Of a DNA stretch of 64,000 nucleotides, positions 652 through 55,760 are shown one piece after another. The stretch comes from Bathymodiolus brooksi (Eukaryota; Mollusca; Bivalvia; Mytilida; Modiolidae): positions 49,130,536 through 49,194,535 of the forward strand of contig OY804579.1 in assembly GCA_963680875.1 (NCBI GenBank), read 5' to 3'. The notes beneath the pieces were generated by a model, which was given only the letters and a program-made list of their open reading frames with translations, was not told the DNA's origin and made no database searches. Position 1 is the stretch's first letter; each line of letters begins with the position of its first letter. The position numbers were made by a program, and so were the translations under genes.

Positions 652-712
652 ATGTCGACATCGATTGTACTTTTACTGGTTCTCTTCATGAAATGCGGGT
701 TTTCTTTTGCAG
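652..712 (+). CDS. Exon 1: start codon and signal peptide
   Basis: An ATG in AAAA-ATG context opens 20 codons with a hydrophobic core (IVLLLVLFM), then CGFSFA, a plausible signal peptidase site. The exon stops after one extra base (phase 1) at GCAG/GTCAGA. The ORF is too short to stand alone. Support comes from its phase matching the vWA exon at 22216 and from the matching signal-peptide exon at 55979 in the next gene. No convincing TATA box is visible just upstream; a TATAAAA-like string lies immediately before the ATG, too close to serve as one. Confidence 0.6.
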
Positions 713-21700: not shown

Positions 21701-24700
21701 GGCACTCAATAAGATGGTATGTTACTAGCCTCATTCCTCTGGGGCACTCAGTAAGATGGTATGTTACTATCTTCATTACCCTGAGGCACTTAATAATATG
21801 ATATGTTGCTACCCTCATTCCCCTGGGGCACTCAATAAGATGGTATGTTACTAGTCTCATTCCTCTGGGGCACTCAGTAAGATGGTATGTTACTATCCTC
21901 ATTACCCTGAGGCACTTAATAATACGATATGTTGCTACCCTCATTCCCCTGGTGCACTCAACAAGATGATATGTTTCTACCCTCATTACCCTGGGGCGCT
22001 CAATAAGATGAAATGTTACTATCCTCATTCTCATGGGGCACTCAATAAGATGGTATGTTACTAGCCTCATCCCCCTGGGGCACTCAACAAGAGGATATGT
22101 TACTATCCTCATTTGATATCATTAAGCAGGGATATAAAAAGAAAGCAAAATACTAATAAAATTGAAAACAAATCTGTATTTGCAAATGATATATACATCT
22201 CAAAATTGTTTGTAGGTTGTGCGCCTGTGCGATTAGATGTTGCATTCTATTTAGTAAGAGACAAAGAGGTGTCAGAAACAGATATTCAAAATCAAGTGAA
22301 TTTTGCAAAGGCGATAGTTAACGCTGCTACCGTTGGATTTATGCAAACACGATTCTCCTGTCATGTCTATGGATCTACAGGAGAAGAAATATTTGATTTC
22401 AAATCAAAAACTTCTAAAGATGGTGTTCTTGCTGCTCTGGATGCTATTCCAACGTTTATTTCAGGCAGTGGTGTACTAGAAACGATCGAAAACATCAAAT
22501 ACATATGGAAAACTATATTTACAGTAGACAAGGGAGACAGACCAAACATTAGCGATTATTGTATAATGATGGCATCAGGCGAAAATAATGATACGTATGA
22601 CTCTGCAGGCCGTTTGAAACCCAATGAATTAGATTTGGGAATTATTGACGCACAGACGAATTATGAAGCAAATATGTATTATACCAGTTCAAGTTATGTT
22701 TCTTTTGCGGAACACCGACCAATTAGTTCTTTTTCTGTTATTAATTTGAATACAGAAGTAGAAGTTTTTACCAGCAAATTGTTTACCTGCAACTATTGTA
22801 AGTATTTCTGCGTTAACACAGTTGTGTGGCATATCCTTGTATATTAATAAATATACTAAGAATGTATATTATATGTGTAAGCCTATTAAATGATATTAAG
22901 GGATCGGTTAAAGCTTCTTTTGTTCTTTTATTGTAAGTATTTCGTTAACACAGTTGTGTGGCATATCCTTGTATATATATATATACTAATATATATGCTA
23001 AAAAAATGTATATTATGTGTGTAAGCCTATTAAATCATATTAAGGGTCGGGCAGGCTTCTTTTTGTTTTTATTGAAAAACCCATGTATGAAAAATGTTTC
23101 ATACGTATAACAGAACAAGTCGGCAAGAAAATGAGCACATATGGTACCCCTAGGAATGCCGAATGTCTGTTGAACAATACGTCCTCCAAACATATTCTTA
23201 GTTTGATCGATCTTGACAATTATGAAAAAAACATCCGATGAATGTGTCCTTTAACAGTGTCTGTGCTATTCTCCTTATTGTGTGCAGAAGTTTATATTAT
23301 TAGAAAAGAATATTTTAAAATGTTAGCCCAGACAGGAGATTACATGTTGGACATCTTGCCTCACGACGTTGTCTGTTGCGCAACTATTGTCCCACTGGAC
23401 AACTATCCCGTATTGAATTTGGCTTTAACTGGATATGTAACCGATTTAGCTTTTAAATTACTAGTAATCGTACAAGGTCATAAAAAAGTTAAATTTACAC
23501 AAAAAAGAAAATTGAAACTAACAGTAATCAATGTCATTCCAATAACTGCATTCATGTTATCTACTCTACAGTAAAAATGTTTGATCTTTTCATAGATTGT
23601 GATGTTAATTATTTCGCATATGATGATCCAAAATTACTGAAGACGTATCAAGATTCCGACTCAGGTAGGTTGAAAAGCTAGAATTTACGTCTTAACTCAC
23701 GAGAATATTCACCGACAAAAGTAAATCATGGTGTTTCATACATAAACATTAGAGGAATCCGATGGGGTCAATAAAGGACATTACAAAATTCCAGAGACAC
23801 ATGCAACATTGAGCGAAAAATATGACTAATTACTCATATTATCAAATATATGCTAAATTCGATTCTACTAAGCCTTGCGACTCATTTATTAATAAGAAAA
23901 CATATTTTAGTGTAAATATTAATAAACTTTATATAAATTATATTTATATTTATGTCAAGAACGATAATTAATTATGTATACATGTTCACATGCTCCAGTG
24001 GTTTGTTAGGAGGTCTCATGCCTTATTTATGTTAGTTGTGTTTGTTTTTGTATAGTGGTGTCCGACACATATAGTGGTGTGTTTTTGTTTTGTTTTTCTT
24101 TGCTACCCTATGTTGCCAGTTTCGCTGGATTGTCCATTTTTAATTGCTCCTTTGGTACACTCTAACGTTTATGAATTACATTTTAACCTCACATAGGTTA
24201 ACTTTCAAAGCTAGGCATAAGCTTTTCGTTGCATTTATTTGATCTATGTGTGCCATCTTTTAAACCAGTGTCATATGGTATTGTGTACATCTGGCAAAAA
24301 TGAACCGATATTCGTTAGTCCATTTTGAACTTGGTGGAATATATCATATGGTATTTTGAACACGGGGTCATTTTTCTATTAGTGTTGATGCTAGAGGCTC
24401 AGCTGAGCCTGCATTGCTCACATGATTACTAATACAGTACTTGGGTCCATGCAAGTTTGTACTTTTAAGGAAAATGCTTTTTATTCATAATCTCAAAAGG
24501 TCATATGTTAAACAATATATTGTGATGTAGTTGAGAGCTCACATTAGTTTCATTAAAACAATATTGCCGAAAAGATCGGAATGTAAATGTGTTATCTGTT
24601 TTAAGGCCGCAAAATATCTGAAACAGTTTTATATTCTATGGCTGTACATTTTGATTAAGCAAAATGACCGTTCGAATGCTATATTCCTAGATTGTTTAGT

Positions 24701-27700
24701 GATAGTTTGTTGGAATCTGCAGCACATGTATTACTCTTCATCAGTATCTCCTCGACTCATTTAAACGGAGAGCGAGTTTATCACCGGGTTTGTGACTAGA
24801 TTAAAACGACGGGTGTCACTAGTGGAGTAGGAACTGCTTACCCTTCCGGAGCACCTGAGTTCACTCCGGTTTTGGGTGGGGTTCGTGTTACTCGATCTTT
24901 AGTTTTATGTGTATGTTTTGTAGATCGTTGTTTGTCCTTTTGTGCTTTTTCTTTTGGCCATTGTGTTGTCTGTTCTTCTTCGATATACCGATCTGATAGC
25001 TACTTTGGTATCTTCAAACTCTTCTTAAACACGAGTTCATGGTTGAACCTATATATCAATGTCGACAGAATAGTAGCACGTGTAGATCGTATTGTAGAAA
25101 AGAGTACTAGGGACCATGATTGTGTACCGGCTATGCATCGTGGTCAAGTGAGAGTTACAACGGATTGTGATTACGACATATGGAACATATATATGGTTAT
25201 TTTTTGACACAGATATGCCGTAACGGCTAACCAAGTCATTGTGGCGAACGGAACACTTTTAAAGTAATGACGTCAACTTAACCTCTATGACGCCTTGGTT
25301 GAGTAGTTACCTTGTTAGCAGCAACCCACTAAAAAATCAAGGGAATCATGATATGAACCACACATACTGAAAAATAAAAGTACAGTGAACTTGTGCAATC
25401 CGACACGTGAGTTTTCCGACATCCTGTGACATCCGACAAAAATGTATGGTCCCATAGTATTTCTGTTAATTAAAATAATCCTGAGTATTCCGACATCCTG
25501 TACAATCCGACACATTTCCCTGGTCCCTAGGGTGTGTAGGATTAGACAGGTTCCATTGTATTAGCTATATGTTGTATCAAATAGTATTTTGCACATATCA
25601 TCCTTTTATTAAGGTAGTACTAAATTTGAATATATTCAAATCTTCTCCATTCAGGTAGATTGTATTTATTAGCGGATGGACCATGGAACATAACGTGCTG
25701 TGGTGTGATAACATCCTGGATATTCTATGTAAAAGATAGCGGAACGCTTAAAATGTGCGTTTTCCGGCCAACAGGGACGACAAACCAGTATAAAATAGTA
25801 GGATATACTATAATTATTGTTCCAGGTGTGTTTATTAATATTAATCCTTGTGAATTTCTAAACTAAGATCAAACAAATCTTCACACAGAATTATGAAATA
25901 TTCACAACTAATATATAAAAGATTGAAAATACCAGAAGAGTAATCAGAAGAATAGACAATACAATGGCCAAATGAAAAAGCACAAAGAGATAAACAATGA
26001 ATTACAAAACACTACACAGTTCAAGTAAAGATTGATCAGTACTAGCCGCACAATAAGAGGTGACAAGCAGTTCCTGCTCCATTAGTTGCACACGTCGTGT
26101 TACTCTTGTCAAACATTTGGTAGTGAGTCATGAATGAGGAAAGGAACGAATTGCGATTACGACAAAGGAGGCATATCCGTGGTTATTTGTGACACAGATA
26201 TTCCGTAACGGCAGCCTCAATATTTCTATTAAGAATGAGCTTTTCCTTATTTATCTTATTTGTGTATTTTTTTTTTTTTGTTGAGTTTGTTTTACAATTT
26301 CAATTGTTGCAAAATTAATAAATATTTACTAGTTGTAAGATTATTATTCATTCTTACCACGAATTAATAGATACAATAAAAAAAATGTTAGTCCCTCAAA
26401 GTATATAAATATTCACTTCAGTCAATTAAATATACAAAATATTGATCAATTGGTAACAAGAGCTACCGGGGGTATGGGGCTAAAATTTATGAGCAATTGT
26501 ATCGTATCTATAATGAACATTGTTTTCTCTTTGACAGAAACGAGCATTGATACACTTTTAACGTATCCAAATATTGTTGGTCAAAGGATAGCTATTAAGG
26601 AAGGAGATAAAATAGGATGGTACGAACCATACATAATTATATAACACCAGAATTGTGAGGAGCCGTCTTGGTCGTGATCATATGTTAATTGGAGTTGCAA
26701 CTACCTATGGAATGAGTGCCTATCACCACTATAACGTTATGAGTTCGAACCCCGTTTACGGCGAGGGGAGCTCGACACAACATTATGTGATAAACTTTAT
26801 CAGTGACTTGCTGCAGTTCGGTGGTTTTCTCCGGGTACTCCGGTTTTTTTCCACCGCTTAAACTGACCGCCGCCACGATATAACTGAAATGATGTTGAAA
26901 GTGGCGTTAAATACCATAACCCTAACCCATAATTGTGGACAGAAAGAAAGTTTAAACAATGATGGTAAATCATTCCATCAATAGCCTCTGACCTCAAAAC
27001 ATTGAATACGGCTTGGGACAGGCACACACACACAGATGTGGCGGTGTTAAACTGGTTAATGGAATATCTACACTCACCTCTTAATAAATGCACATGCAAC
27101 GTCAATATAAATATAAACAATCAATTGTACACACTTCCACTCAAAAAAAAAACCCACATACTATCACAACTTTGAAGAACAAACACAAACATGGACAGTA
27201 CGATAACAGGATCAGTGGCTGCTAGGCTAAGATGGAAAAATCTGTTGGTTAAAGACCATTACTGTTAAGACAAAACACATAATTAAAGGTAATAACAAAA
27301 TTACCGAACTCCGAACAATCTTACAAAGGGAAAGTCAAAACTCATAATTATATAAACAGACAAAATCAGTCAACAACCGGAAAACTGTGAAAACCGTAAT
27401 GACCCTGACTTGGTACAGGCATTTCTAAAGAAATGGTGGGTTGAATCAGATTTTAAGGCGCCAAACCTCCCGCTCTCATTGCGGTTCAAAGGTTCCGGCT
27501 GATTCTTTATGTATGACACTCGTTGTAAAGATACCTCATTCAATTAAGAAATAAGGAACCAGAGGCGAGGGATTAAATTTACTAATATCCGCCAACCCAT
27601 GTTAAAACTCAAAACACATTCTGGCTTCCATGATTTATTTCGATTCTGATATGTCTAAGAGTACAAATACTGTAGTATACTTTGATTGGAAGACGGTAAT

Positions 27701-30700
27701 TTATATTTACGTTTCCGGAAAATATCGCACACAATTTATGCTGCCAATGGAAAAGTCAGTCACATTTACCGTGCGAATGAGATTACATCATCACTAAATC
27801 GCTCGTTGTCTACAAAGCGAAAGAAGGACGTCATGTTAGAATGTGTGTATATACTATAATTTAGGTAAAACAAAACGTAATTACTTTTAATATGCAGGTA
27901 TTCATCTGGTCCCAATATAATATCTTACTCAACATGTAATGTATCTACTCGAACCGACTGTCCACAGAGCAATTATTGGTATTCCCCCACAGAAGATATA
28001 GCAGTTGGAGATATTATAACAATGCCTACATCATCTGACCTAATGAACAGAGCCTACTCTTTGAAGTTCACTACAGCAGATAGTAAGACTTAATTCCATG
28101 ATTGTTGAGGTGTCATATAAAGTTTTAAGTTGTCGTTATATACTTACTCGAATTAAATTTATCCAGTGTTTTAATGTGTTATATTGCAATAATTAGAAAT
28201 ACATTTACCTGGTGTTTTAATCTGTTATATTGCAAATATTAGAAATGAATTTACCCGATGTTTTAAGTTGTCATATTGCATTAATTAGAAATAAATTTAC
28301 CTGATGTTTTAAGCTGATATATTGCAATAATTAGAAATAAATTTACATTGGGTTTTAAGTTGTTATATTGCAATAATTAGAAATAAATTTAACTGTGGTT
28401 TTAAGCTGATATATTGCAATAATTAGAAATAAATTTACATGGGGTTTTAAGTTGTTATATTGCAATAATTAGAAATAAATTTGACTGTGGTTTTAAGCTG
28501 TTATATTGCAATAATTAGAAATAAATCTACCCGATGTTATAAGTTGTCATATTGCAATAATTAGAAATAAATTTATCTGGTGTTTTAAGTTGTTATATTG
28601 CAATAATTAGAAATAAATTTACCTGGTGTTTTAAGTTGTTATATTGTAATAATTAGAAATTAATTTATCTGATGTTTTAAGTTGTTTTATTAACTTATAG
28701 TATATATTTCTCATATGCTATATTTTTAACTGATTACAAGAAAATTTTAAAAATAGCCGGCGGAGTGAAACAGTTTACTGTTCCCCTACTTCCGGATCCG
28801 AACTATTCCATGCCCAAGAAAGATGCGCAGTGCGTCATTCCTGTCAAGCGCACCAGTGACCATTCAGTTCGTTAGGCAGACGAGATGGCAGATAAATAAT
28901 CAACAAATGCTGTATTTCTTTCAAAACAATGTTGTGCCCCAATTTTTTAATGGTATGGTATGCTGACATTATCATCTTCAGTGGATTTGTGGTTATGTGC
29001 ATGTATATAAGATAATAAAACAGTTATTACATGCCTGTTCAGGGAACAGTCAAAACTATTGTCCCTCGGTGCTGGAGATGACTTGGGAACTGTTGCCTTC
29101 GGCCTCAGGCAATAGTTCCCAAGTCATCTCCAGCACCTCGGGTCAATAATCTTGACTGTTCCCTGAACAGGCATAAAATAACTGTATAATATTACAATAA
29201 TTAGAAATACATTTACCTGGTGTTTTAAGTTGTTATATTGCAATAATTAGAAATAAATTTACCGTATGTTTTAAGTTGTTATATTAAAATAATTATAATG
29301 ATATTTTCCCGGTGTTTTAACCTGTTATATTGCAATAATTGTAAATAAATTTACTTGGTGTTTTAAGTTGTTATTTTTAATAATTAGAATTAAGCTTACT
29401 TCGTGTTTTAAAGTGTTATTTTACAATATTAGAATTAAGCTTACCCAGTTTTTGATGTTGAAATATTAGAATAATAAGGTTTAAATATTGGTCTACCCGA
29501 TGTTTTAAGATGCTATATTGCAAATATTAGAATTAAATACAGTTGGTGTGGAGTTAAATGGAACTATTACTTTACATTGTTGTAATACAAACTTTAGAAA
29601 TAAAATTTTAATTTGCAATACAGTGAAAAACTAAAATCCCACACTGTCGAAACAGTTCTAAAATCCCACACTGTCGAAACAGTTCTAAAATCCCACACTG
29701 TCGAAACAGTTCTAAAATCCCACACTGTCGAAACAGTTCTAAAATCCCACACTGTCGAAACATTTCTAAAATCCAACAGATACAAAAGTCATCGGAATTA
29801 AAAGGAACCCGTGTTTATTTTTCTTGTTTCTATCAAGTGCTGACCGCATTCAACAAGTTGAAGATTATATCAGGGATTTTAGATTATTAAAGAAAAAACA
29901 GGATAAAATTGAGACATCGTTGATATAAAAGGATTATTTAAATTAACAAAACAAATTCTGGAAGATCGCAGTCGGTCGTTGTTTTGCACGAATCATTACA
30001 TAAATCGCCAAATGACGTTATGTAAATGACACTTCATTTCGAGAAGGCCTTCTAATCAGCACTGTACGTATGCTAAGATGGTACATTCGAGATTCAAGAT
30101 TCGAAATTCGAGATTCAGTATCTGAAGTACGAGATTCGAAATGAAAAGTAATACATAATTGGAAACAACGGAAGGGAAAACTGAAATGTGCATTTAGTGA
30201 TAATCGAAACAATTGCATTCATTTACAGAAGAAATTAATAAAATAATCACTATGTGACAAGAAACTCTACATGTTGTCCTAAATCACTAAAGTAAATTAA
30301 GGGTACATATAGGTATACTCTGTAACACATAATCCAACAATTCGCTGAAACGATCAATAGACATGGACTATTTGTCTAGTTTTATTTTGAGTCGCCTCCC
30401 TTTAGCTAAGTAAGAGTTGTCTCGCTTTGATGTGGCATAATTTGGCTTTAATCTCATTGGTTAATTAGATTACTGAATTTTGAATCTAGAATCTCGAGCT
30501 ATAGATACTAAATCTGGAATTTTGAATCTCGAATGATCCTTCTGTGATTTCAAAGCAAAAGATCCCAACGATATATATTATCTCCAAAATCAGATGCCGA
30601 TTTATTTTTTATGGCCTTGTATTTCTGAATTCATAATAGTATTCTCTTCAATCAATTATAGATACAGAGTTGATTATTAGGACTAGTGAACATGAAACCG

Positions 30701-33700
30701 AGCTAGAAGAAAATACTGCTGTTGGAGTGAGAGCAATATATTTAACTATTGTTGATACTGATGCTTACGAAGATCATGTGTTTACGATGACCGGTGCTAC
30801 GGACTACTTTGAGCTTAACATTGTTAACACTGAGAAAAGTAAGTACATGTACAATGTAATACGGTAGTCTGAATTGTATTTAAGTAGACGAATGCAGGAT
30901 AATACCACCCGGATATATTTGGGGTAATCAGAATCCGTAAATCGAAGGACAGACAATACAATGGCCAAAAGAAAAAGTACAAAAGGACAAACAACGATCT
31001 ACAAAACATTACACAAAAAACACAAGATCGACCAATCTTTCCTTTTTTAGCAAAGTAATTTATTGATTTGTGTGAGTTTTCCTGTGATTGTTATATGATA
31101 TTGGAATTATATTTTCAGTGTTGTTTATAAGAGGAAATGTCCATTGTTTATTTTGATGTTTTTGTCCCTATGATTTTGCATAGTGCTGTTGACATCTATT
31201 CCATAAGCTTTTTAACTCTATCATGGGATCTTATCTATATAGCGGTTCAATTCGTTGACTTCTAACCAGAGTCTGAACATCAATAACGTAAATGTTCACC
31301 CCATCAATGTTAGCGGTTCAAGATATCTCCACCTACCGATGAATTTACTGAACAGGTCGCTATAACTGTCCAGGTTCTCCTCTCCTAGTAATGTATTGTT
31401 GCTGAAAGTAGAATTTCTGACAACAGAACACCATTGGAAATATTATAAATAAGAATTAGATACGTAGTACGGGTAGCAATGGGGCGAAATTTTTCCTGAA
31501 CTATTGAGAGGTATTACCCACTACGTAACGCAAATAATTTGTTTGTATTTTTTGTAAGAGTTTGACTCAGGATTTGCCTTCGTTCTTACCTGAAATGTTT
31601 ATTGTGACAATGTACGTATTACTATTGTGCGTAAATGATAAACGGTGGTTCCTTCTTTTCACTATGGAAATCTAAGGTTCTGACATAATTGCTATAAAAT
31701 CTTAACTTGATCAGAATTAGGTATTTTATTAAGCTCAATTAAAAAATACATAAATTATGAAAAGGAAGTGGAAACAGCCATGATAAAAAAATTCCACAAA
31801 TATCAGCAATACGAAAAACCACGACTTTACTTCAACAACAAAAAAGCACGACATATGGCGTTGAAGATCCAATTACTGACTTGAGATATATTGTGACTGG
31901 GTGAAACTGGTTAATTGGATCCCAACACTCATCCTCTGATAATTGGATCTCTAACAACAATATGAACATTATGAAGACTTTTGATAATCACCGAAAGCAC
32001 TTTATAATCTTTTTTAATCTGTCAGATGCGTTAAGTACAGTCCTAATTGCCCATACAAGTTTCGAAATTTTACTAGTGATTTCAAAATATTAAAAATACA
32101 GGGGTTAAGCTTATGGTGTTTAAGGCCACGTTCAACAATATGTCAGTTATATCGTGGCGGTCAATTTTATTGGTGGATGAAACAGGAATACCCGAAGAAA
32201 ACCACCGACCTGTTGCAAGTCACTGACAAGCTTTATCACATAATGTTGTTTCGAATATACCTTGTCATGAGAGGGATTCGAACTCACAACTACCATACGA
32301 TCACGACCACGATGGGCCATTAAAAAGGTATGTGACACTACTATGAAGGTATTAAATGTTACATGTTAATCAGTTAGATATAAGTGTTAATTCATCTCAC
32401 ATGACATACTGTTGAATGATGAAATGATTTCATAATCTAAACACATATTTAATGCAGTGACAATTGACCTCAATACCAAGTTCCCGAAAGGGGGTGGCGG
32501 ACCTTACATAGTCACAATATCTGGTGAAGATACTTGTCAACATTCCGCTACTGTTACCCTTACTATTGGAACATATAATGCAGTAAGTCATATAAAATGT
32601 AGGGGTCGTGTGCTTAACACCACTTTCATCAATATATTGCTTATTTCGTGGCTGTCAGATTGGTCATATAACATGTATTGATTCGGATCCTTGTTGACAT
32701 ACAAATAGTCATGAAAAGAAAATTAAAACCAGTACTGGTTACCAATTCCCCGTATATCAACAAACCTATGATAAGAACCGAACATTTTGTCATAGAAGAT
32801 CGCATATAACTGTATATTAGATCTCTGGCGAAATAACATGTTGCCGTGTAACGGGCCGCCAACGACCACTCCTGACAAACTGTTGCGCATTATGAGCTGC
32901 TGCTGGCTGTTGTGAAACGTAGAAGAGTGGAAAAATCCATACACGAGACACTCATTTCCGTCCCTTCCTAATGTCGAGTTCTGTATCTGATTTTTCCCGC
33001 GTAATTAGCAGGCGACACTTTCGCACCAGAGAAACTATGTATTATGTGTATATCCGGGAATCCGGAGGAAATATGTGCTTTTATGTTTTTTATGAAAATA
33101 AAGATATACATAAGAAGAGTTTGAAGATACTAAAGAGGTAATCAGAATCCGTAAATCGAAGGACTGATAACACAATGGCCAAAAGAAAAATGACAAATGA
33201 CAAACAACGATCTACAAAACCTTACACATAAAACTAACGATGGAGTAACATATGACCGAAAGTTTTGTTATATCGTTAACGTAATGTGCTTTGGTCGACG
33301 AAGCGGGAAAATGAGCGTTCATAAATATATGTTTTGGATATCTTACAATTATTTTGGAATAAGTTTTGGAACTGTTCTGTGTGGTATTTTATTTTATTGT
33401 ATTATTTCAGCCTCCAATTATAAATAATTTACCTTACATTCATGAGATATTAGAAACTACAAAAACGGCAGTTCCTCTGTTCATGATTAATGTCACCGAT
33501 GCTACAAACGACGATGTGTGTTGTACTCTATCCTCTACCTTGCCAAATTCGCCTAACTTTGTGCTGCACAATATTACCAATGACATCGGTAAGCCTACAA
33601 TACGTTCATATTTACATACATGTAACACTGAATTTTTTAATACTTAATATGACCATCATTTATTGGCGCGTAAACTTGGTTTTTATTACTAGGTTAAGCT

Positions 33701-36700: not shown

Positions 36701-39700
36701 TATTGTATATAAACACATTCTCATATGTTGTAGGCGTAGAAGAATTGTGGCTGTATACTATTGAGGAACCAGTCTTTCAATACAGTGACACAGATTCCTA
36801 CAGATTATTTGTTTGTTGCGAAGACCCGTACGGCTCTACATATAGCTATCTTATTCTACGATTAGTAGAGGTTAAGCAAGTGTCTTACGATCCTCCAGGT
36901 ATGTACAATGTAAGAGTCAGAATACGCTCCTCTATGTTAGTAAGAGTCAGAATACGCTCCTCCAGATATGTAAGAATCCGAATCCGCTCCTCCAGGTATG
37001 TAGCAGTCAGAATACGCTCTTCCAGATAGGTAAGAGTCAGAATACGCTCCTCCGGGTATGTAAGAGTCAGAATACGCTCCTCCAGGTATGCAAGAGTCAG
37101 AATACGCTCCTCCAGGTAAGTACAATGTAAGAGTCAGAATACGCTCCTCCAGGTTTGTAAGAGTCAGAATACGCTCCTGCAGGTATGTAAGAGTAAGAGT
37201 ACGCTCCTCCAGGTATGTAAGAGTCAGAATACGCTCTTCCAGGCTAGTAAGAGTCAGAATACGCTCCTCCAGGTATGTACGAATCCGAATAGACTCCTCT
37301 AGGTATGACAGAGTCAGAATATGCTCCTCCAGGTATGTACAATGTAAGAGTCAGAATACGCTCCTCCAGGTTAGTAAGAGTCAGAATACCCTCCTGTAGG
37401 TATGTAAGAGTCAGAATACGCTCTTCCAGATATGTACAATGTAACAGTCAGAATACGCTCCTCCAGGTTTGTAAGAGTCAGAATACACTCCACCAGGTAT
37501 GTAAGAGTAATAGTACGCTCCTCCAGGTATGTAAGAGTCAGAATACGCTCCTCCAGGTATGTAAGAGTCAGAATACGCTCCTCCAGGTATGTAAGAGTCA
37601 GAATACGCTCCTCCATGTTAGTAAGAGTCAGAATACGCTCCTCCAGGTATGTAAGAATCCGAATATGCTCCTCCAGGTATGTAGCAGTCAGAATACGCTC
37701 TTCCAGGTATGTACAAAGTAAGAGTCAGAATACGCTCCTTCGGGTTAGTAAGAGTCAGAATACGCTCCTCCAGGTATGTAGCAGTCAGAATACGCTCTTC
37801 CATGTATGTAAGAGTCAGAATACGCTCCTCCAGGTATGTAAGAGTCAGAATACGCTCCTCCAGGTTTGTAAGAGTCAGAATACGCTCCTCCAGGTAGGCA
37901 CAATGTAAGAGTCAGAATACGCTCCTCCATGTTTGTAAGAGTCAGAATACGCTCCTCCAGGTATGTAGCAGTCAGAATCCGCTCTTCCATGTATGTAAGA
38001 GTCAGAATACGCTCCTCCAGGTATGTAAGAGTCAGAATACGCTCTTCCAGGTATGTGCAATGTAAGAGTCAGAATACGCTCCTCCGGGTTAGTAAGAGTC
38101 AGAATACGCTCCTTCAGGTTAGTAAGAGTCAGAATAGGCTCCTGTAGGTATGTAATAGTCAGAATACGCTCATCCATGTATGTAAGAATCCGATTACGCT
38201 TCTCTAGGTGTGTAAGAGTCAGAATACGCTCCTCCAGGTATGCACAATGTAACAGTCAGAATACGCTCCTCCATGTTTGTAAGAGTCAGAATACGCTCTT
38301 CCAGGTATGTAGCAGTCAGAATACACTCTTCCATGTATGTAAGAATCAGAATACGCTCCTCCAGGTATGTAAGAGTCAGAATACGCTCCTCCAGGTTTGT
38401 AAGAGTCAGAATACGCTCCTCCAGGTATGTAAGAGTCAGAATACGCTCCTCCATGTTTGTAAGAGTGAGAATACGCTCCTCCAGGTATGTAGCAGTCAAA
38501 ATACGCTCCTCCAGGTATGTAAGAGTCAGAATACGCTCCTCCAGGTTTGTAAGAGTCAGAATACGCTCCTGCAGGTATGTAAGAGTAAGAGTACGCTCCT
38601 CCAGGTATGTAAGAGTCAGAATACGCTCCTCCAGGCTAGTAAGAGTCAGAATACGCTCCTCCAGGTATGTACGAATCCGAATAGACTCCTCTAGGTATGA
38701 CAGAGTCAGAATATGCTCCTCCAGGTATGTACAATGTAAGAGTCAGAATACGCTCCTCCAGGTTAGTAAGAGTCAGAATACCCTCCTGTAGGTATGTAAG
38801 AGTCAGCATACGCTCTTCCAGATATGTACAATGTAACAGTCAGAATACGCTCCTCCAGGTTTGTAAGAGTCAGAATACACTCCACCAGGTATGTAAGAAT
38901 AATAGTACGCTCCTCCAGGTATGTAAGAGTGAGAGTACGCTCCTCCAGGTATGTAGGGGTCAGAATACGCTCCTCCAGGTATGTACGAATCCGAATAGGC
39001 TCCTCTAGGTATGACAGAGTCAGAATATGCTCCTCCAGGTATGTACAATGTAAGAGTCAGAATACGCTCGTCCAGGTTGGTAAGAGTCAAAATACGCTCC
39101 TCCAGGTATGTAAGAGTCAGAATACGCTCCTCCAGGTATGTAGGGGTCAGAATACGCTCCTCCATGTTAATAAGAGTCAGAATACGCTCCTCCAGGTATG
39201 TAAGAATCCGAATATGCTCCTCCAGGTATGTAGCAGTCAGAATACGCTCTTCCAGGTATGTACAATGTAAGAGTCAGAATACGCTCCTCCAGGTTAGTAA
39301 GAGTCCGAATACGCTCCTCCAGGTTAGTAAGAGTCAGAATACGCTCCTGTAGGTATGTAAGAGTAAGAGTACGCTCCTCCAGGTATGTAAGAGTCAGAAT
39401 ACGCTCCTTCAGGTTAGTAAGAGTCAGAATAGGCTCCTGTAGGTATGTAAGAGTCAGAATACGCTCCTCCATGTATGTAAGAGTCAGAATACGCTCCTCC
39501 AGGTATGTACAATGTAACAGTCAGAATACGCTCCTCTATGTATGTAAGAGGCAGAATACTCTCCTCCAGGTATGTACAATGTAAGAGTCAGAATACGCTC
39601 CTCCAGGTTAATAAGAGTCAGAATACGCTCCTGCAGGTATGTAAGAGTAAGAGTACGCTCCTCCAGGTATGTAAGAGTCAGAATACGCTCCTCCAGGTTA

Positions 39701-42700
39701 GTAAGAGTTAGAATACGCTCCTCCAGGTTAGTAAGAGTAAGAATACGCTCCTCCAGGTTAGTAAGAGTCAGAATACGCTCCTCCAGGTTAGTAAGAGTAA
39801 GAATACGCTCCTCCAGGTTAGTAAGAGTCAGAATACGCTCCTCCAGGTTAGTAAGAGTAAGAATACGCTCCTCCAGGTTAGTAAGAGTCAGAATACGCTC
39901 CTCCAGGCTAGTAAGAATCCGAATACGCTCCTCCAGGTATGTACAATGTAACAGTCAGAATACGCTCCTCCAGGTTAGTAAGAGTCAGAATAGGCTCCTG
40001 TAGGTATGTAGCAGTCAGACTACGCTTCTCTAGGTATGTAAGAGTCAGAATACGCTGCTCCAGGTATGTACAATGTAACAGTCAGAATACGCTCCTATAG
40101 GTATGTAAGAGTCAGAATAGGCTCTTCCAGGTATGTACAATGTAAGAGTCAGAATACGCTCCTCCAGGTTAGTAAGAGTCAGAATACGTTCCTGCAGGTA
40201 TGTAAGAGTAAGAGTACGCTCCTCCAGGTATGTAAGAGTCAGAATACGCTCCTCCAGGTTAGTAAGAGTCAGAATACGCTCCTTCAGGTTAGTAAGAGTC
40301 AGAATACGCTCATGTAGGTATGGAAGAGTAAGAATACGCTCCACTAGGTATGTAAGAATCCGAATAGGCTCCTCCAGGTATGTAGCAGTCAGAAAACGCT
40401 CTTCCAGGTATGTAAGAGTCAGAATACGCTCCTCCATGTATGTAAGAATCCGAATACGCTGCTCTAGGTATGTAAGAGTCAGAATACGCTCCTCCAGGTA
40501 TGTAGGGGTCAGAATACGCTCCTCCATGTTAATAAGAGTCAGAATACGCTCCTCCAGGTATGTAAGAATCCGAATATGCTCCTCCAGGTATGTAGCAGTC
40601 AGAATACGCTCTTCCAGGTATGTACAATGTAAGAGTCAGAATACGCTCCTCCAGGTTAGTAAGAGTCCGAATACGCTCCTCCAGGTTAGTAAGAGTCAGA
40701 ATACGCTCCTGTAGGTATGTAAGAGCAAGAGTACGCTCCTCCAGGTATGTAAGAGTCAGAATACGCTCCTTCAGGTTAGTAAGAGTCAGAATAGGCTCCT
40801 GTAGGTATGTAAGAGCAAGAGTACGCTCCTCCAGGTATGTAAGAGTCAGAATACGCTCCTTCAGGTTAGTAAGAGTCAGAATAGGCTCCTGTAGGTATGT
40901 ACAATGTAACAGTCAGAATACGCTCCTCTATGTATGTAAGAGGCAGAATACTCTCCTCCAGGTATGTACAATGTAAGAGTCAGAATACGCTCCTCCAGGT
41001 TAATAAGAGTCAGAATACGCTCCTGCAGGTATGTAAGAGTAAGAGTACGCTCCTCCAGGTATGTAAGAGTCAGAATACGCTCCTCCAGGTTAGTAAGAGT
41101 TAGAATACGCTCCTCCAGGTTAGTAAGAGTAAGAATACGCTCCTCCAGGTTAGTAAGAGTCAGAATACGCTCCTGTAGGTATGTAAGAGCAAGAGTACGC
41201 TCCTCCAGGTATGTAAGAGTCAGAATACGCTCCTTCAGGTTAGTAAGAGTCAGAATAGGCTCCTGTAGGTATGTAAGAGCAAGAGTACGCTCCTCCAGGT
41301 ATGTAAGAGTCAGAATACGCTCCTTCAGGTTAGTAAGAGTCAGAATAGGCTCCTGTAGGTATGTAAGAGCAAGAGTACGCTCCTCCAGGTATGTAAGAGT
41401 CAGAATACGCTCCTTCAGGTATGTAAGAGTCAGAATACACTCCACCAGGTATGTAAGAGTCAGAATACACTCCTCCAGGTATGTAAGAGTCAGAATACGC
41501 TCCTCCAGGTATATAGGAGTCAGAATACGCTCCTCCATGTTAGTAAGAGTCCGAATACGCTCCTCCAGGTATGTAGCAGTCAGAAAACGCTCTTCCAGAT
41601 AGGTAAGAGTCAGAATACACTCCACCAGGTATGTAAGAGTAATAGTACGCTCCTCCAGGTATGTAAGAGTCAGAATACGCTCCTCTAGGTATGTAAGAGT
41701 CAGAATACACTCCACCAGGTATGTAAGAGTCAGAATACGCTCATCCATGTATGTAAGAGTCAGAATACGCTCCTCTAGGTATGTAAGAGTCAGAATACAC
41801 TCCACCAGGTATGTAAGAGTCAGAATACACTCCACCAGGTATGTAAGAGTCAGAATACGCTCCTCTAGGTATGTAAGATTCAGAATACGCTCCTCCAGGT
41901 ATGTAAGAATCCGAATATGCTCCTCCAGGTATGTAAGAATCCGAATACGCTCATCCATGTATGTAAGAGTCAGAATACGCTCCTCTAGGTATGTAAGAGT
42001 CAGAATACACTCCACCAGGTATGTAAGAGTCAGAATACGCTCCTCTAGGTATGTAAGATTCAGAATACACTCCACCAGGTATGTAAAAATCCGAATACGC
42101 TTCACCAGGTATGTAGCAGTCAGAATACGCTCTTCCAGATAGGTAAGAGTCAGAATACACTCCACCAGGTATGTAAGAGTAATAGTACGCTCCTCCAGGT
42201 ATGTAAGAGTCAGAATACGCTCCTCTAGGTATGTAAGAGTCAGAATACACTCCACCAGGTATGTAAGAGTCAGAATACGCTCCACCAGGTTAGTAAGAGT
42301 AAGAATACGCTCCTCCAGGTTAGTAAGAGTAAGAATACGCTCCTCCAGGTAAGTAAGAGTCAGAATACGCTCCTCCAGGCTAGTAAGAATCCGAATACGC
42401 TCCTCCAGGTATGTACAATGTAACAGTCAGAATACGCTCCTCCAGGTTAGTAAGAGTCAGAATAGGCTCCTGTAGGTATGTAGCAGTCAGAATACGCTTC
42501 TCTAGGTATGTAAGAGTCAGAATACGCTGCTCCAGGTATGTACAATGTAACAGTCAGAATACGCTCCTATAGGTATGTAAGAGTCAGAATAGGCTCTTCC
42601 AGGTATGTACAATGTAAGAGTCAGAATACGCTCCTCCAGGTTAGTAAGAGTCAGAATACGCTCATGTAGGTATGGAAGAGTAAGAATACGCTCCACTAGG

Positions 42701-44118
42701 TATGTAAGAATCCGAATAGGCTCCTCCAGGTATGTAGCAGTCAGAAAACGCTCTTCCAGGTATGTAAGAGTCAGAATACGCTCCTCCATGTATGTAAGAA
42801 TCCGAATACGCTCCTCTAGGTATGTAAGAGTCAGAATACGCTCCTCCAGGTATGTACAATGTAACAGTCAGAATACGCTCCTCCATGTTAGTAAGAGTCA
42901 GAATACGCTCCTGTAGGTATGTAAGAGTCAGAATACGCTCCTCCAGGTTGGTAAGACTATATAAATTACATAACTACGTTTTTATTAGGCATAAGCCCTA
43001 TTTAAAATTGCAATACAAAATAACAAGCAAAATGTGTTAGAAACCAACCGAACACAGTTGTTATGACAATATCGCCATTGATATGAATATAGCAAACACA
43101 TATCACATAGTTAGTATATGCTACAAGTCAAGAAATGTAAAGAATAGAAGGAAAAATAAATTACTTACCAGGACGACTGAAAACAAATATTCCTTAATAT
43201 ACCACAATTATTATTCTATTTTATATCTTTTCAGGATGGTTTTATACGGCCCTTATAGTATCAATGTTTCCTATATCGATCATGATGATGCTAGCATGTG
43301 CTATTTTCATAATAACATTGTTTTTCCTGGACGGAAATCCAAAAATTGAAATGGACAAGGAACACAAAAGTCGTGAATCGATTGAGTTGACACCAGATAT
43401 TGACTATGGTGAAGGTGATGAAACCAATGTGAAATTGTCAGGGAATACTTCAGAAATTGAAACATTTAAAACTTTGTATAACGACGAAGTGGTGAGCATA
43501 CCGATATGGAGAGGCCGATGGAAACAAGCTGCGAACGCAGTAGCTGCAACTAATGCGCTGCCTTCTATATCAGAAAAGTCCGGATTCCAGACTTTGGAAG
43601 AAGTTGATGCACCTAAAACCAAAGGAGATGCCTTTGGTGTTGATATGAAATTATTTCATTATGGTGGCAAGCCAAAGCAGATGATTTCTGATGAAGAAAG
43701 ATCCGCCAAGGTGCTTCAGAAAAAGAACGATATGAAAGACAAATGGATGGGACTAGCAGAAAAGATGAAGAACAGGAAAATAGTGAAAGAAAAGGGAACA
43801 AGCATGGTCACCATATTATCTCACAAAAGACTAACCACGAAAGATAAAGCATCAGAGAAAAAGAACGATGTCACCAATTTGTCCAATAAAAAACTAGCAA
43901 CCCGAAAACACGTACCAACCACGAAAGAGAAGGTATTGGACGAAATAGATGATGCCGCCGGAATCAGAAATGAAGACATTAAAAACGATGATGACACAAG
44001 TATCAAGGGAATTTATGATTCAGACGAAGAACTTAATGATGAGATCGGCGATGTCCTAAGCATCTTTGACAAAGTTGTGGATACCGGAACAGCAGCGATG
44101 GGAACAACCCTTCCTTAA
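652..44118 (+). CDS. Predicted 11-exon gene: secretory type I membrane protein with degenerate vWA, CCG module and two cadherin-like repeats
   Basis: Eleven exons join in frame: 652-712, 22216-22797, 23596-23664, 25655-25825, 26538-26619, 27898-28082, 30662-30838, 32458-32582, 33411-33588, 36734-36898 and 43235-44118. Every intron is GT-AG, phases are 1,1,1,1,2,1,1,0,1,1, and the total is 2679 nt (892 residues plus TAA) with no internal stop. Approximate residue layout: signal peptide 1-20, vWA 21-215, short Cys segment 215-238, CCG/jelly-roll-like module 238-384, cadherin-like repeats 384-484 and 485-599, transmembrane helix 600-630, cytoplasmic tail 631-892. The protein should sit at the cell surface with adhesive domains outside. 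Function is unknown; adhesion or recognition is inferred from domain types. Intron 1 is 21.5 kb of mostly satellite, so an exon could be missed there, but the phases agree without one. The model comes from reading the DNA only. Confidence 0.72.
785..1055 (-). mobile_element. tRNA-derived SINE, minus strand
   Basis: Reading the minus strand, a box A-like region (GTCGTGGTCGTGG...) is followed by a box B-like GAGTTCGAACCCCG, then a conserved body ending in CATAACCCTAACCC. The same body occurs at 26657, 32101, 46277, 52568 and 56655. Copies differ by many substitutions, so they are old. This one lies in intron 1. Confidence 0.65.
1076..1210 (+). mobile_element. Dispersed repeat family D, 3' fragment
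   Basis: The stretch with ACCTGTTCCACTAATGACAC, TGTTACTCTCGTC and GAGGAAAGGAAGGG matches the 3' half of the repeat also seen at 25918-26212 and, inverted, at 24785-25036 and 51348-51485. It is probably a non-autonomous DNA transposon; I do not know its class. Confidence 0.5.
1711..22114. repeat. 42-bp satellite array, about 485 copies (intron 1)
   Basis: The unit is approximately ACTCAATAAGATGGTATGTT followed by ACTATCCTCATTCCCCTGGGGC. It is 42 bp, or 14 codons, with no stop in two plus frames and one minus frame, so dozens of ORFs appear (motifs such as [14 protein letters not shown] or [14 protein letters not shown]). None looks like a real protein gene. Units differ by scattered substitutions and a few small indels. 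The left part (to about 11.5 kb) and right part differ: the variant AAGAGGATAAGTTACTATTC with TTATTATGCTGAG appears only from about 11.56 kb on. Longer repeats of about 2.2 kb, 0.84 kb and 1.257 kb are embedded. The array fills most of intron 1 of gene 1. Confidence 0.95.
13590..16103. repeat. Recent 1257-bp segmental duplication inside the 42-bp satellite
   Basis: Blocks near 13590-14846 and 14847-16103 are nearly identical with a constant offset of 1257 bp; for example the piece at 13838-14505 recurs at 15095-15762. Only scattered single-base differences are seen. 1257 is about 30 units minus 3 bp. Exact edges are approximate. Confidence 0.8.
22216..22797 (+). CDS. Exon 2: von Willebrand factor A-like domain with lost MIDAS
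   Basis: The exon starts after TTGTTTGTAG and ends at CTATT/GTAAGTATT; both ends are phase 1, giving about 194 residues. The order of landmarks fits a vWA fold: a Cys just before strand 1 ([13 protein letters not shown]), helix [12 protein letters not shown], strand RFSCHVYGS, then [45 protein letters not shown] and a later strand SFSVINLN. The metal-binding DxSxS, Thr and Asp positions are all replaced ([20 protein letters not shown]), so metal-dependent ligand binding is unlikely. The open frame extends upstream to 22113 and downstream to 22847, but splice signals trim it. The domain call rests on motif order and length. Confidence 0.7.
22796..23068 (+). repeat. Tandem duplication of about 135 bp that copies the exon 2 donor
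   Basis: ATTGTAAGTATTT...GTTAACACAGTTGTGTGGCATATCC at 22796 is repeated from about 22931, including TGTAAGCCTATTAAAT and the end GCTTCTTTT. Copies differ by a TA-repeat expansion and small changes. Both copies carry a GTAAGT donor; only the first follows the vWA frame. Confidence 0.8.
22798..23595 (+). other. Intron 2
   Basis: It runs from GTAAGTATT to TTTTCATAG. It holds the donor duplication and an open stretch at about 23288-23570 that begins after a good acceptor but would create TAA if spliced to exon 2; see rejected items. Confidence 0.5.
23596..23664 (+). CDS. Exon 3: short Cys-containing linker exon
   Basis: A 69-nt phase 1-1 exon lies between TTTTCATAG and CTCAG/GTAGGT. It encodes about 23 residues including [18 protein letters not shown]. 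It joins the vWA exon by a Tyr codon and the next exon by a Gly codon. I do not recognise a domain; it is acidic and aromatic and probably leads into the CCG module. It is too small to be found as an ORF, and support comes from splice signals and phase alone. Confidence 0.55.
24785..25036 (-). mobile_element. Dispersed repeat family D, fullest copy, minus strand
   Basis: On the minus strand it reads GTTTGAAGATACCAAAGTAG, then CAACACAATGGCCAAAAGAA, AACAACGATCTACAAAAC, CGGAGTGAACTCAGGTGCTC and CGGAAGGGTAAGCAGTTCC. This order serves as reference for the other copies. It is very common in bivalve DNA to my knowledge and is probably a non-autonomous transposon. No ORF of its own. Confidence 0.6.
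25100..25235 (+). mobile_element. Family D fragment, plus strand
   Basis: GATTACGACATATGG... and GACACAGATATGCCGTAACGGC match the end of the copy at 25918-26212 (GATATTCCGTAACGGC). It sits just beside the minus-strand copy in opposite orientation, suggesting nested or inverted insertion. Confidence 0.45.
25381..25560. mobile_element. MITE with imperfect terminal inverted repeats
   Basis: It starts TACAGTGAACTTGTGCAATC and ends GATTAGACAGGTTCCATTGTA, so the ends are inverted copies (about 24 bp with mismatches) and each includes TA. Inside, TCCGACATCCTGT is repeated. The size of 180 bp and lack of coding capacity fit a Tc1/mariner-type MITE. Confidence 0.65.
25655..25825 (+). CDS. Exon 4: first part of CCG-type beta-sandwich-like module
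   Basis: A 171-nt phase 1-1 exon is bounded by TCTCCATTCAG and GTTCCAG/GTGTGT. Recognisable pieces are [18 protein letters not shown], then [11 protein letters not shown] and [12 protein letters not shown]. The CCG-x-x-x-x-W pattern followed by a G-x-L/V-x-x-x-V-F/W-R-P strand recurs, from memory, in molluscan extracellular proteins that also carry vWA or cadherin-like domains. No function is established to my knowledge. It continues directly into exon 5 by a Glu codon. The fold assignment is inference. Confidence 0.65.
25918..26212 (+). mobile_element. Dispersed repeat family D copy, plus strand (intron 4)
   Basis: AAGATTGAAAATACCAGAAG, CAATACAATGGCCAAATGAA, GCAGTTCCTGCTCCATTAGT and GATATTCCGTAACGGC follow the family order. 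It is decayed but nearly full length. Confidence 0.55.
26538..26619 (+). CDS. Exon 5: middle of CCG-type module
   Basis: An 82-nt exon starts after CTCTTTGACAG (phase 1) and ends in phase 2 at GGATG/GTACGA, a weak donor. It encodes [20 protein letters not shown] followed by EGDKIG. The split Trp codon (TG plus G) joins exon 6 to give the typical GDKIGWYSSGP turn, which is strong evidence that the weak donor is genuine. A SINE begins about 35 bp after this donor. Confidence 0.6.
26657..26931 (+). mobile_element. tRNA-derived SINE, plus strand (intron 5)
   Basis: GTCTTGGTCGTGATCATATG, then box B-like GAGTTCGAACCCCG, then GGTTTTCTCCGGGTACTCCG and the end CATAACCCTAACCC. It lies just after the weak donor of exon 5. 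Confidence 0.68.
27898..28082 (+). CDS. Exon 6: last part of CCG-type module
   Basis: A 185-nt exon (enters phase 2, leaves phase 1) lies between TTTTAATATGCAG and GCAGATA/GTAAGA. It completes the Trp of [15 protein letters not shown] and goes on with [24 protein letters not shown] and [10 protein letters not shown]. Two Cys in the STC and TDC pieces could pair. It ends just before the first cadherin-like repeat. The following intron carries the 46-bp and 27-bp arrays. Confidence 0.62.
28120..28690 (+). repeat. 46-bp tandem array, part 1 (intron 6)
   Basis: About 12 units of the form TTTTAAGTTGTTATATTGCA followed by ATAATTAGAAATAAATTTAC and CTGGTG. Units are similar but not identical. The array is interrupted by a non-array segment at about 28690-29190 and resumes after it. 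Confidence 0.88.
29020..29186. mobile_element. Foldback element (long hairpin) inserted between the two parts of the 46-bp array
   Basis: The left arm CCTGTTCAGGGAACAGTC and GGTGCTGGAGATGACTTGGG are mirrored on the right by CCCAAGTCATCTCCAGCACC and GACTGTTCCCTGAACAGGC. The arms are about 65 to 80 bp with few mismatches and a tiny loop near 29100. The outermost parts CAGTTATT and AATAACTG also pair. No coding capacity. Confidence 0.8.
29187..29560 (+). repeat. 46-bp tandem array, part 2, decaying to the right
   Basis: Units with AATAATTAGAAATACATTTACC and GGTGTTTTAAGTTGTTATAT continue after the foldback element and become more diverged toward 29560. Confidence 0.75.
29631..29776 (+). repeat. 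27-bp minisatellite, about 5 copies
   Basis: The unit is CTAAAATCCCACACTGTCGA followed by AACAGTT, five nearly perfect copies and a partial sixth. Each contains the small palindrome ACTGT-CGA-ACAGT. Because 27 is a multiple of 3, short ORFs appear on both strands; they are artefacts. Confidence 0.9.
30080..30537. mobile_element. Candidate foldback element with GATTC-rich inverted ends
   Basis: The left end (CATTCGAGATTCAAGATTCG...CAGTATCT) is the inverse of the right end (AGATACTAAATCTGG...GAATCTCGAATG), with a few mismatches and a short deletion. The ends are built of ten-base GATTCGAAATTC-like steps. It lies directly before exon 7. Confidence 0.5.
30662..30838 (+). CDS. Exon 7: cadherin-like repeat 1, N-terminal half
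   Basis: A 177-nt phase 1-1 exon lies between ATCAATTATAG and GAGAAAA/GTAAGTAC. It encodes an E-x-x-A-V-G start ([20 protein letters not shown]), then [17 protein letters not shown]. This is the usual cadherin-like run: strand, TVxDxDxxD calcium-type turn, strand, then a FxL/I-N strand. The donor is a near-perfect consensus. The second half of the repeat is in exon 8. Confidence 0.66.
30893..31030 (+). mobile_element. Family D 5' fragment (intron 7)
   Basis: GGGGTAATCAGAATCCGTAA, then GACAATACAATGGCCAAAAG and AAACAACGATCTACAAAAC match the family. The start sits only about 55 bp after the donor of exon 7. Confidence 0.6.
31031..32100. other. Intron 7 remainder, no feature
   Basis: AT-rich sequence with no repeat array, RNA gene or phase-compatible exon that I can support. 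Confidence 0.4.
32101..32320 (-). mobile_element. tRNA-derived SINE, minus strand
   Basis: The inverse order of the 26657 copy: GGGGTTAAGCTTATGGTGTT, TCAGTTATATCGTGGCGG, GGGATTCGAACTCACAAC and CGATCACGACCACGATGG. Confidence 0.65.
32458..32582 (+). CDS. Exon 8: cadherin-like repeat 1, C-terminal half
   Basis: A 125-nt exon enters in phase 1 after TATTTAATGCAG and leaves in phase 0 at AATGCA/GTAAGT. It encodes [20 protein letters not shown], then SGEDTC and SATVTLTI. This matches the L-D-x-E...Y-x-v-x-V-x-A-x-D...a-x-v-x-v-x-I half of a cadherin repeat, with a Gly-rich loop. The exon ends at the linker that continues into [10 protein letters not shown] in exon 9. Confidence 0.62.
33117..33250 (+). 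mobile_element. Family D 5' fragment (intron 8)
   Basis: GTTTGAAGATACTAAAGAGG, TAATCAGAATCCGTAAATCG and ACACAATGGCCAAAAG follow the family order, with AAACAACGATCTACAAAACC at the end. It carries a single copy of the module that is amplified at 53.36 kb. Confidence 0.62.
33411..33588 (+). CDS. Exon 9: cadherin-like repeat 2, N-terminal half
   Basis: A 178-nt exon follows GTATTATTTCAG (phase 0) and ends at GACATCG/GTAAGC (phase 1). It opens with [20 protein letters not shown], a common start of mollusc cadherin-like repeats, then [14 protein letters not shown] and PNFVLHNIT. The acidic VTDATNDD loop fits a calcium site. A Cys pair (CC) occurs here and another in exon 10. The intron after it contains the 37-bp array. 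Confidence 0.65.
34089..35822 (+). repeat. 37-bp tandem array, about 47 copies, acceptor-like (intron 9)
   Basis: The unit is GACTGTTTATGTTTGTATTT followed by ATGACTTGTTCTTTGCC or ...TTTGCAG. Units ending TTGTTCTTTGCAG look like 3' splice acceptors. Some units carry TTATATATTATC insertions. It lies between exons 9 and 10 of gene 1. No meaningful ORF. Confidence 0.93.
36144..36290 (+). mobile_element. Degenerate tRNA-Leu/Ser-like SINE head
   Basis: GTGGTCGAGTGGTCTAGGGC resembles box A of a class II tRNA. A degraded box B (GAGTTCAAAAATT) follows at the expected spacing. The stem pairs are not intact, so it is not a functional tRNA. It is followed by a 58-bp sequence that recurs 162 bp downstream. 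Confidence 0.5.
36228..36447 (+). repeat. Pair of 58-bp direct repeats
   Basis: AATTTAGAAGGGGAGATAAT and ACTTTCACGAAAATGGGGGTCGTGTAC-like sequence occur at about 36228 and again at about 36390, with one base missing in the second copy. Confidence 0.75.
36734..36898 (+). CDS. Exon 10: cadherin-like repeat 2, C-terminal half; its donor seeds the 30-bp array
   Basis: A 165-nt phase 1-1 exon lies between TCATATGTTGTAG and TCCTCCAG/GTATGT. It encodes [30 protein letters not shown] and [13 protein letters not shown], the second half of a cadherin-like repeat, then a short juxtamembrane stalk ending in DPP. The last 13 exon bases (TACGATCCTCCAG) and the donor are repeated, with one change, about 200 times directly downstream. 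Reading through the donor stays open until TAG at 37027. Confidence 0.64.
36886..42955 (+). repeat. 30-bp tandem array of exon-end plus splice-donor units, about 200 copies (intron 10)
   Basis: The unit is GTATGTAAGAGTCAGAATAC followed by GCTCCTCCAG. A 37-bp form has TACAATG inserted after GTATG; the first unit, next to exon 10, is of this form. Units end with the same bases as exon 10 and start with its donor. Common variants have GTTAGTAAG, GTTTGTAAG or AGATATG in the donor. Since 30 is ten codons without stops, ORFs with [10 protein letters not shown] or [10 protein letters not shown] (plus) and [10 protein letters not shown] (minus) appear; they are artefacts. Blocks of several hundred bp recur within it, for example around 37.2 and 38.6 kb, and 39.3 and 40.6 kb. 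Confidence 0.95.
43235..44118 (+). CDS. Exon 11: transmembrane helix and cytoplasmic tail
   Basis: The acceptor TATATCTTTTCAG is followed by a Gly codon completed in phase 1, then a strongly hydrophobic segment of about 30 residues ([19 protein letters not shown] and onward to FFL). The remaining tail of about 260 residues ends at TAA 44116. The tail is charged, with alternating acidic ([16 protein letters not shown]) and Lys-rich stretches, two similar HKRLTTKDK / NKKLATRKH pieces, and an acidic end [19 protein letters not shown]. No kinase, TIR or SH2-binding domain is recognised. Codon use looks like genuine coding DNA. This is the longest non-repeat ORF near the gene end. Confidence 0.75.
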
Positions 44119-44351: not shown

Positions 44352-44370
44352 GTCAACACAAAAGACTTAC

Positions 44371-55572: not shown

Positions 55573-55760
55573 AGAAGGACAGAGAATACAATGGGCAAAA
55601 GAAAAAGGACAAAAGGAAAAACAATGATCTACAAAACATCAAACAGAAAACTAATGATCGAGTAACGTGAACAACACTAACAACCGGGATGAACTCGGGT
55701 GCTCCGGAAGGGTAAGCAGTTCCTGCATCACATGTGGCACCCGTAGTGTTACTCTTGAAA
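55573..55760 (+). mobile_element. Remainder of the family D copy that holds the 35-bp array
   Basis: AACAATGATCTACAAAACATC, GGATGAACTCGGGTGCTCCG, GAAGGGTAAGCAGTTCCTGC and TGTTACTCTTGAAAGC follow in the family order seen at 24785-25036. Confidence 0.65.

Follow-up and report, generated by a model that had tools for sequence, protein, structure and literature searches.

The closest described relative of the locus reported here is the human IFI6 (6-16) gene, in which Turri, Cuin and Porter in 1995 reportedly found a minisatellite with multiple splice donors, said to consist of about 26 copies of a 12-mer and to offer alternative donors for an in-frame extension of the protein. According to PMC4526556, two of the downstream units are used and the gene yields three mRNA species. 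IFI6 is a direct precedent for a donor-bearing minisatellite, and the array that we describe in the bivalve Bathymodiolus brooksi resembles it in lying at an exon end, in beginning at the donor of that exon and in being built of units that contain donor sequence. The two differ greatly in scale: IFI6 has short units and few of them, whereas here 178-477 copies of 30 or 37 bp occupy 5.5-14.5 kb in each of three gene copies. They differ too in that IFI6 is reported to use more than one donor, while the downstream donors here are only candidates.

Other systems share parts of this picture. Human UBC is described in PMC10809524 as a tandem series of 228-nt in-frame coding monomers, each with an AG|GT usable as donor or acceptor, and variable splicing was seen by RT-PCR; the units here also bring an AG|GT each, but they are 30 nt long, intronic and contain stops in the frame of the exon, and their use as splice sites is putative. 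Intron gain by tandem duplication, as outlined in PMC4974935, likewise involves local duplication of a segment bearing a splice site, with several copies of a 24-bp segment in the fission yeast cases cited there. That process places a new intron inside an exon, whereas here the donor of an existing intron has been duplicated hundreds of times. ABCA7 and TERT hold intronic minisatellites with a reported association with splicing. No report of a donor-derived array of the present size was found in the open-licence literature searched. This locus is a much larger, intronic and frame-breaking variant of the donor-bearing minisatellite, with evidence that the exon served as template.

The host gene and its exon-10 donor

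The window, by which we mean the whole stretch of DNA analysed (64,000 nucleotides), covers positions 49130536-49194535 of its contig in a 2.0-Gb genome of 136 contigs. Tblastn searches with the proteins of relatives place eleven exons on its plus strand between 652 and 44118 (Table 1), and the numbering of exon 10 in the original prediction agrees with this gene model. The product comprises a signal peptide, a von Willebrand factor A (VWA) domain, an ectodomain, a transmembrane segment recognized by eye and a cytoplasmic tail. Among the relatives, P0004-P0006 (M. californianus, M. galloprovincialis, M. edulis) are 60-62% identical over about half of the query, and P0007, a shorter M. galloprovincialis form, is 66% identical over a quarter of it. 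Intron 1 of the gene holds a 20-kb array with 485 copies of a 42-bp unit. Two open reading frames, at 44353-45265 on the plus strand and 62195-63248 on the minus strand, have a likeness by eye to what we take to be mobile-element tyrosine recombinase and reverse transcriptase.

Table 1. Features of the host gene and of the array at its exon-10 donor, in window coordinates
Feature	Position	Strand	Evidence
Exon 1, signal peptide	652..712	+	tblastn P0002, 21/21 identical; donor read
Exon 2, von Willebrand factor A domain	22216..22797	+	Pfam PF00092, E 6.9e-13; tblastn; splice sites
Exon 3, limits approximate	23598..23664	+	tblastn; donor region
Exon 4	25655..25825	+	tblastn; splice sites
Exon 5, start approximate	26537..26619	+	tblastn; donor region
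Exon 6	27898..28082	+	tblastn; splice sites
Exon 7	30662..30838	+	tblastn; phases
Exon 8	32458..32582	+	tblastn; phases
Exon 9	33411..33588	+	tblastn; phases
Exon 10, end phase 1	36734..36898	+	tblastn P0002-P0006; phase and continuity with exon 11; alignment; three genomic copies
Tandem array, 197 junction-like units	36886..42956	+	TRF; junction-anchored unit walk
Authentic 5' splice site and remainder of unit 1 (GTATGTACAATGTAAGAGTCAGAA, 37-bp type unit)	36899..36922	+	
Exon 11, transmembrane segment and cytoplasmic tail	43235..44118	+	acceptor AG ends 43234; P0001 97% identical

Exons 7-11 chain in phase. At the junction of exons 10 and 11 (36898 to 43235) both sides are in phase 1, and the joined peptide matches the YVPPD-WFFRALI of Mytilus P0004-P0006 and of P0003; the Mytilus junction peptide reads ...YVPPDWFFRALI. 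P0003 looks transcript-like, since the contig that carries its exons 4-11 is no longer than 2,132 bp, and its exon 10/11 junction is spliced. Because the two exons join in phase as they do in Mytilus, and because the same junction is spliced in P0003, position 36898 can be regarded as a well-supported donor on the combined grounds of phase, protein continuity and the sequences of relatives. When exon 10 of the window is compared with that of P0002, 2 of 56 residues differ, both of them within the last seven (window 36875-36898); the end of the exon beside the array may be changing more rapidly than its remainder.

Anatomy of the array

TRF reports a period of 30 bp in 196.3 copies at 36908-42956. 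A walk anchored on the junction, in which a small penalty on other spacings favours steps of 30 and 37 bp, gives 197 units head to tail, namely the real junction and 196 more. Neighbouring units lie 30 bp apart in 172 cases and 37 bp apart in 24, within the 10-100 bp usual for minisatellite units. The prediction of a 6-kb array of about 200 copies at the exon-10 donor is confirmed by this count, and its claim that the array starts exactly there is borne out, as the units run from 36886 flush with the donor. The seven extra bases of the longer units are CAATGTA in 23 cases and CAAAGTA in one, and this near-constancy of the insert makes the 37-bp form look old.

A GT stands at the junction in 187 of the 197 units and an AG|GT in 164, the latter at a density of 27.5 per kb in the array versus 1.83 per kb elsewhere. 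CAG|GTATGT is the commonest donor type (84/197), with 30 units of CAG|GTTAGT and 28 of TAG|GTATGT. The original statement that nearly every unit carries the junction therefore holds for the GT but not for the exact letters, for TACGCTCCTCCAG is counted 82 times in the array and TACGCTCCTCCAGGTATGTAAG 27 times; the exact 22-mer stands in 27 of the 197 units. With the 7-bp insert removed, the 195 inner units fall into 88 distinct types. Three blocks of 8-11 units are repeated at offsets of 44-45 units, which is a mark of larger duplications. A search of the array for inverted repeats of at least 12 bp found none.

Three copies of exon 10, each with an array

At E <= 1 the exon-10 peptide has three matches in the 2.0-Gb genome (five candidates scored), and the exon-10 DNA pattern has three too. 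All three copies (A, in the window, A2 and B) have the array at the same donor, with 197, 178 and 477 units, respectively. The exact 22-mer has 110 matches in the genome, 27 in A, 30 in A2 and 53 in B, with none on the other strand and none in a reversed control; the search was for the exact unit, and counts of repeats may be lower bounds. The case in which the same array would turn up at unrelated loci was checked in this way, and no locus besides the three exon-10 donors has the exact 22-mer.

A and A2 are nearly identical in their exons (165/165 bases in exon 10 and 883/884 in exon 11, so that 1 base in 1,049 differs), which could reflect gene conversion mimicking a recent duplication. In their arrays, 103 of 118 aligned units are identical, and the alignment contains one-sided blocks of 60 units in A2 and of 46, 26, 6 and 1 units in A. 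Copy number thus differs between near-identical copies (197 versus 178), and this comparison indirectly supports variation in array length. All units of A and A2 measure either 30 or 37 bp, and in B the 37-bp form accounts for 26 units and further lengths for five; distinct unit types number 92 in A, 77 in A2 and 141 in B. Since 27 unit types are common to A and B, along with the 37-bp form, we infer that their arrays share a common ancestry. Homology between A and B extends to the array and across it, and beyond it (window 42956-44118) nothing was found but short matches to repeats elsewhere in the window; the cytoplasmic tail encoded by exon 11 is long in A and short in B. As the array sits at this break in homology, it may have mediated an exchange of the last exon.

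Evidence for the unit as an amplified exon-intron junction

It had been claimed that the last 13 exonic bases recur in the unit with one change, and the unit consensus does match them at 12 of 13 positions. Outside the array, the end of exon 10 is the best place in the window for this consensus, the next best reaching 10/13, as does the best on the other strand. As a control, the units of six arrays in the window were scored against exon ends, the 3' ends being those of nine exons (exons 3 and 5 left out). The 30-bp unit scores 39 at the end of exon 10, whereas 400 random 50-mers reach no more than 20. Scores of the remaining five arrays at the nine 3' ends are 13-18, no higher than the 95% level of their own nulls. 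A chance match of 13 bases is rejected on the consensus match and on this control. At exon 5' ends, a 46-bp array (28150-28691) scores 25 at the start of exon 9 (33411) and a 37-bp array (34088-35827) scores 20 at the start of exon 4 (25655), both above the 95% null level and below the null maxima of 51 and 24, respectively; these two scores are probably chance in AT-rich sequence.

In copy A, the last 21 or so bases of exon 10 align to the unit with a 3-base gap, and by itself this gapped match is not exceptional, a local score of 21 being reached by 3 of 8,263 null windows. The strong case for a junction origin comes from copy B and the genome-wide counts, not from the tail of A by itself. 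The exon end of B reads AAGCAAGTGTCAGAATACGTTCCTCCAG|GTATGTAAG, its exons 10 and 11 join as YVPP|EWFYRALI, and the last 24 bases of its exon tail (AAGTGTCAGAATACGTTCCTCCAG) match three array units with one mismatch, these units sitting near the far end of the array, away from the exon. Open reading frames P0009 and P0010, from other records, end in ...QVSEYVPPGM, much like the SEYAPPGM that the array gives in the register of the exon. This was a hint that TCAGAA, 'intronic' in the unit, belongs to the exon, and copy B shows it.

In Mytilus, in P0002 and in copy B the exon closes with YVPP, and so the GTT codon in the exon of B is probably ancestral. In B, units with this GTT make up 11 of the first 18 downstream of the exon versus 3 of the other 458 (Fisher 1.8e-15; the cut at 18 was chosen after the list was inspected). 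An exact 113-bp repeat in B takes in 16 exonic bases. From the clustering by the exon and from this repeat, amplification appears to run outward from the real junction and to have done so more than once.

Taken with the 24-base tail match in B, the clustering of exon-variant units beside the exon strongly supports a unit of about 20-24 exonic and 6-10 intronic bases, probably with the true junction as its source. Its exonic part is longer than the 13 bases of the prediction, and in A it is blurred by the 3-bp gap. The reading of the unit as an amplified junction of exon and intron is likewise strongly supported, by its presence at three of three exon-10 copies, by the absence of the exact unit everywhere else and by the tail match in B. 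The exon contains an AAG and so does the seam on the intronic side, as would fit a first duplication mediated by microhomology.

A process that makes long arrays from short segments is evidently common in this genome. In 16 control stretches totalling 160 kb, 34.9% of the sequence lies in arrays of at least 500 bp with a period of at least 12, and in the window the figure is 53.7% (for example 1725-22113, 34088-35827, 47570-51036 and 53369-55575). As minisatellites fill about 35% of the 160-kb sample, amplification is likely to be untargeted, and here it has hit a splice junction.

Consequences for splicing

Use of a downstream junction would cost the protein its membrane anchor. Counting units without GT as well, none of 196 downstream junctions in A, 177 in A2 and 476 in B keeps the anchor (0/849 overall). 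In A, 192 meet a stop codon before the extension ends, and with the other 4 exon 11 is read out of frame; in A2 the numbers are 173 and 4, and in B all 476 lead to a stop. The in-frame extension by alternative donors said to characterize IFI6 is therefore not seen here, and a longer exon 10 with exon 11 in frame is excluded by sequence. The array does contain an open reading frame of 197 aa, which has no homologue at E <= 10 among 21 candidates; with no downstream junction in frame, translation of the array as a repeat protein is rejected too.

Two relatives show opposite states of this intron, the junction being spliced in P0003 and read through in P0002. The latter (600 aa; 94% across the 42% of the query that aligns, some 80% within exon 2) has exons 1-10 on a contig of 1,901 bp, and the record is hence transcript-like. 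It runs from exon 10 past the donor into ...YVPPGM, so that in this sample intron 10 is not spliced at the first site; such an end could come from pre-mRNA, from a donor further downstream or from a genuine truncated isoform.

An energy model of the U1 duplex gives -10.0 kcal/mol for the true donor, a value equalled or bettered by 108 of the 196 downstream units of A; the four further donors of this gene that were scored have -5.6 to -8.2 kcal/mol. When the model was applied to the consensus units of arrays (35 control rows, some overlapping, and six in the window), the present unit had -10.2, equalled only by two-copy repeats of 328-330 bp in one stretch (-11.2, on the other strand). Folding of a single 300-nt stretch at the array start gave less structure than any of 200 shuffles did (z +3.46), so the donors there are predicted not to be hidden by local folding. 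A choice of donor through hairpins is rejected on this result and on the lack of inverted repeats of at least 12 bp. None of the three arrays contains an AATAAA, and ATTAAA, counted in A and B, is absent from both. Among the 88 unit types, the donor positions are not significantly more conserved than the others (P 0.27 and 0.17), and selection keeping the donors intact is unsupported.

Weighing the explanations

We think it very probable that this is a junction-born minisatellite which expanded, was copied with its gene and is now mostly neutral intron, the first donor being the one normally used. Given the anatomy, the junction identity and the three copies observed, its birth would have been a tandem duplication of a segment of some 30 bp across the exon-10/intron-10 junction, with the shared AAG at the seam, and the exon-type units seen clustered beside the exon suggest that copying went from exon to array. 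As expansion of this kind is common in the genome, the array would have grown by more duplications and by unequal exchange, to the different copy numbers observed, and would have travelled with the gene as this was copied. It would be neutral intron for the most part, and the pre-mRNA would normally be spliced from 36898, since only this donor closes exon 10 at the size set by the acceptor and keeps exon 11 in frame. Given the frame consequences set out above, missing it, through retention or a later donor, would truncate the protein before the membrane anchor and so yield a secreted or discarded product.

The same observations could be read as regulation, with the look-alike donors, or the delay that they cause, setting the proportion of membrane-anchored to ectodomain-ended transcripts and array length tuning it. 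The loss of the anchor at all 849 downstream junctions, the reading of transcript-like P0002 beyond the donor, the U1 pairing of 108 of 196 units in A, the weak structure at the array start and the presence of the array in all three gene copies agree with this. We nevertheless think it unlikely, for P0002 could represent pre-mRNA before splicing, the copies vary from 178 to 477 units without any hint of constraint, and the donor positions stand out by no significant conservation. An elaborated form, to which we give a similarly low probability, is a splice-site sink of variable length: U1 bound at many equal sites in weakly structured RNA would slow the removal of intron 10, array length would set the ratio of anchored to secreted VWA ectodomain because all donors but the first lose the anchor, and the last codons of the exon would drift with the array because it keeps being re-seeded from the exon end. 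Somewhat less credible again is that the AG|GT units are dual sites for recursive or stochastic splicing of intron 10, as reported for UBC; PMC10809524 describes introns with dual-specific splicing as enriched in human tandem-repeat genes. The 164 AG|GT of the 197 units, at 27.5 versus 1.83 per kb elsewhere, would suit such use, and pyrimidines are about as frequent before the units (mean share 0.55, maximum 0.69) as in the overlapping range of eight real acceptors (0.50-0.81), but T by itself is sparse (mean 0.26 and maximum 0.38, where the acceptors have 0.38-0.69). Moreover, 30 nt is too short for an animal intron, so that each step would need at least two units.

Two further readings bear on where the array came from. 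Misassembly could have produced its length or the A/A2 duplication, as tandem arrays are difficult to assemble, alleles can be assembled as paralogues and A and A2 are almost the same in exons 10 and 11. Yet the three copies differ in length and hold many unit types (92, 77 and 141), exon 11 of B differs from that of A, and B-type exon-10 ends, though exon ends alone, appear in other records (P0009, on a contig of 209,584 bp, and P0010), which together make an artefact very improbable. Most improbable of all is that a mobile element, for instance one of the bivalve Helentron/HINE type with tandem repeats in its centre, settled beside the exon and that the exon end was later rebuilt from a unit. 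Central tandem arrays are indeed a feature of oyster Helentron-type elements (PMC7492417). An array borne by such elements would be expected at several unrelated loci, whereas the exact 22-mer lies at the three exon-10 donors only in 2.0 Gb, and it is this confinement that disfavours the origin from an element; besides, all three arrays begin within exon-10 sequence, the YVPP exon ending is common to Mytilus, and inverted repeats of at least 12 bp are absent from the array.

Implications

How the spliceosome chooses among identical neighbouring donors is usually studied with few engineered copies. Nature here supplies three genes in which a single donor comes with 178, 197 and 477 junction-like units, and the read-out is binary, the anchor being kept or lost. 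The locus looks like a minisatellite caught growing from a coding splice junction with the exon as its template and, if about a third of the genome consists of such arrays, more junctions may be affected. On the assumption, which is a guess in both figures, of some 100 arrays per Mb and some 200,000 donors, hundreds of arrays straddling a junction would be expected without selection. A count of such arrays in an annotated genome would measure purifying selection on splice-site duplication.
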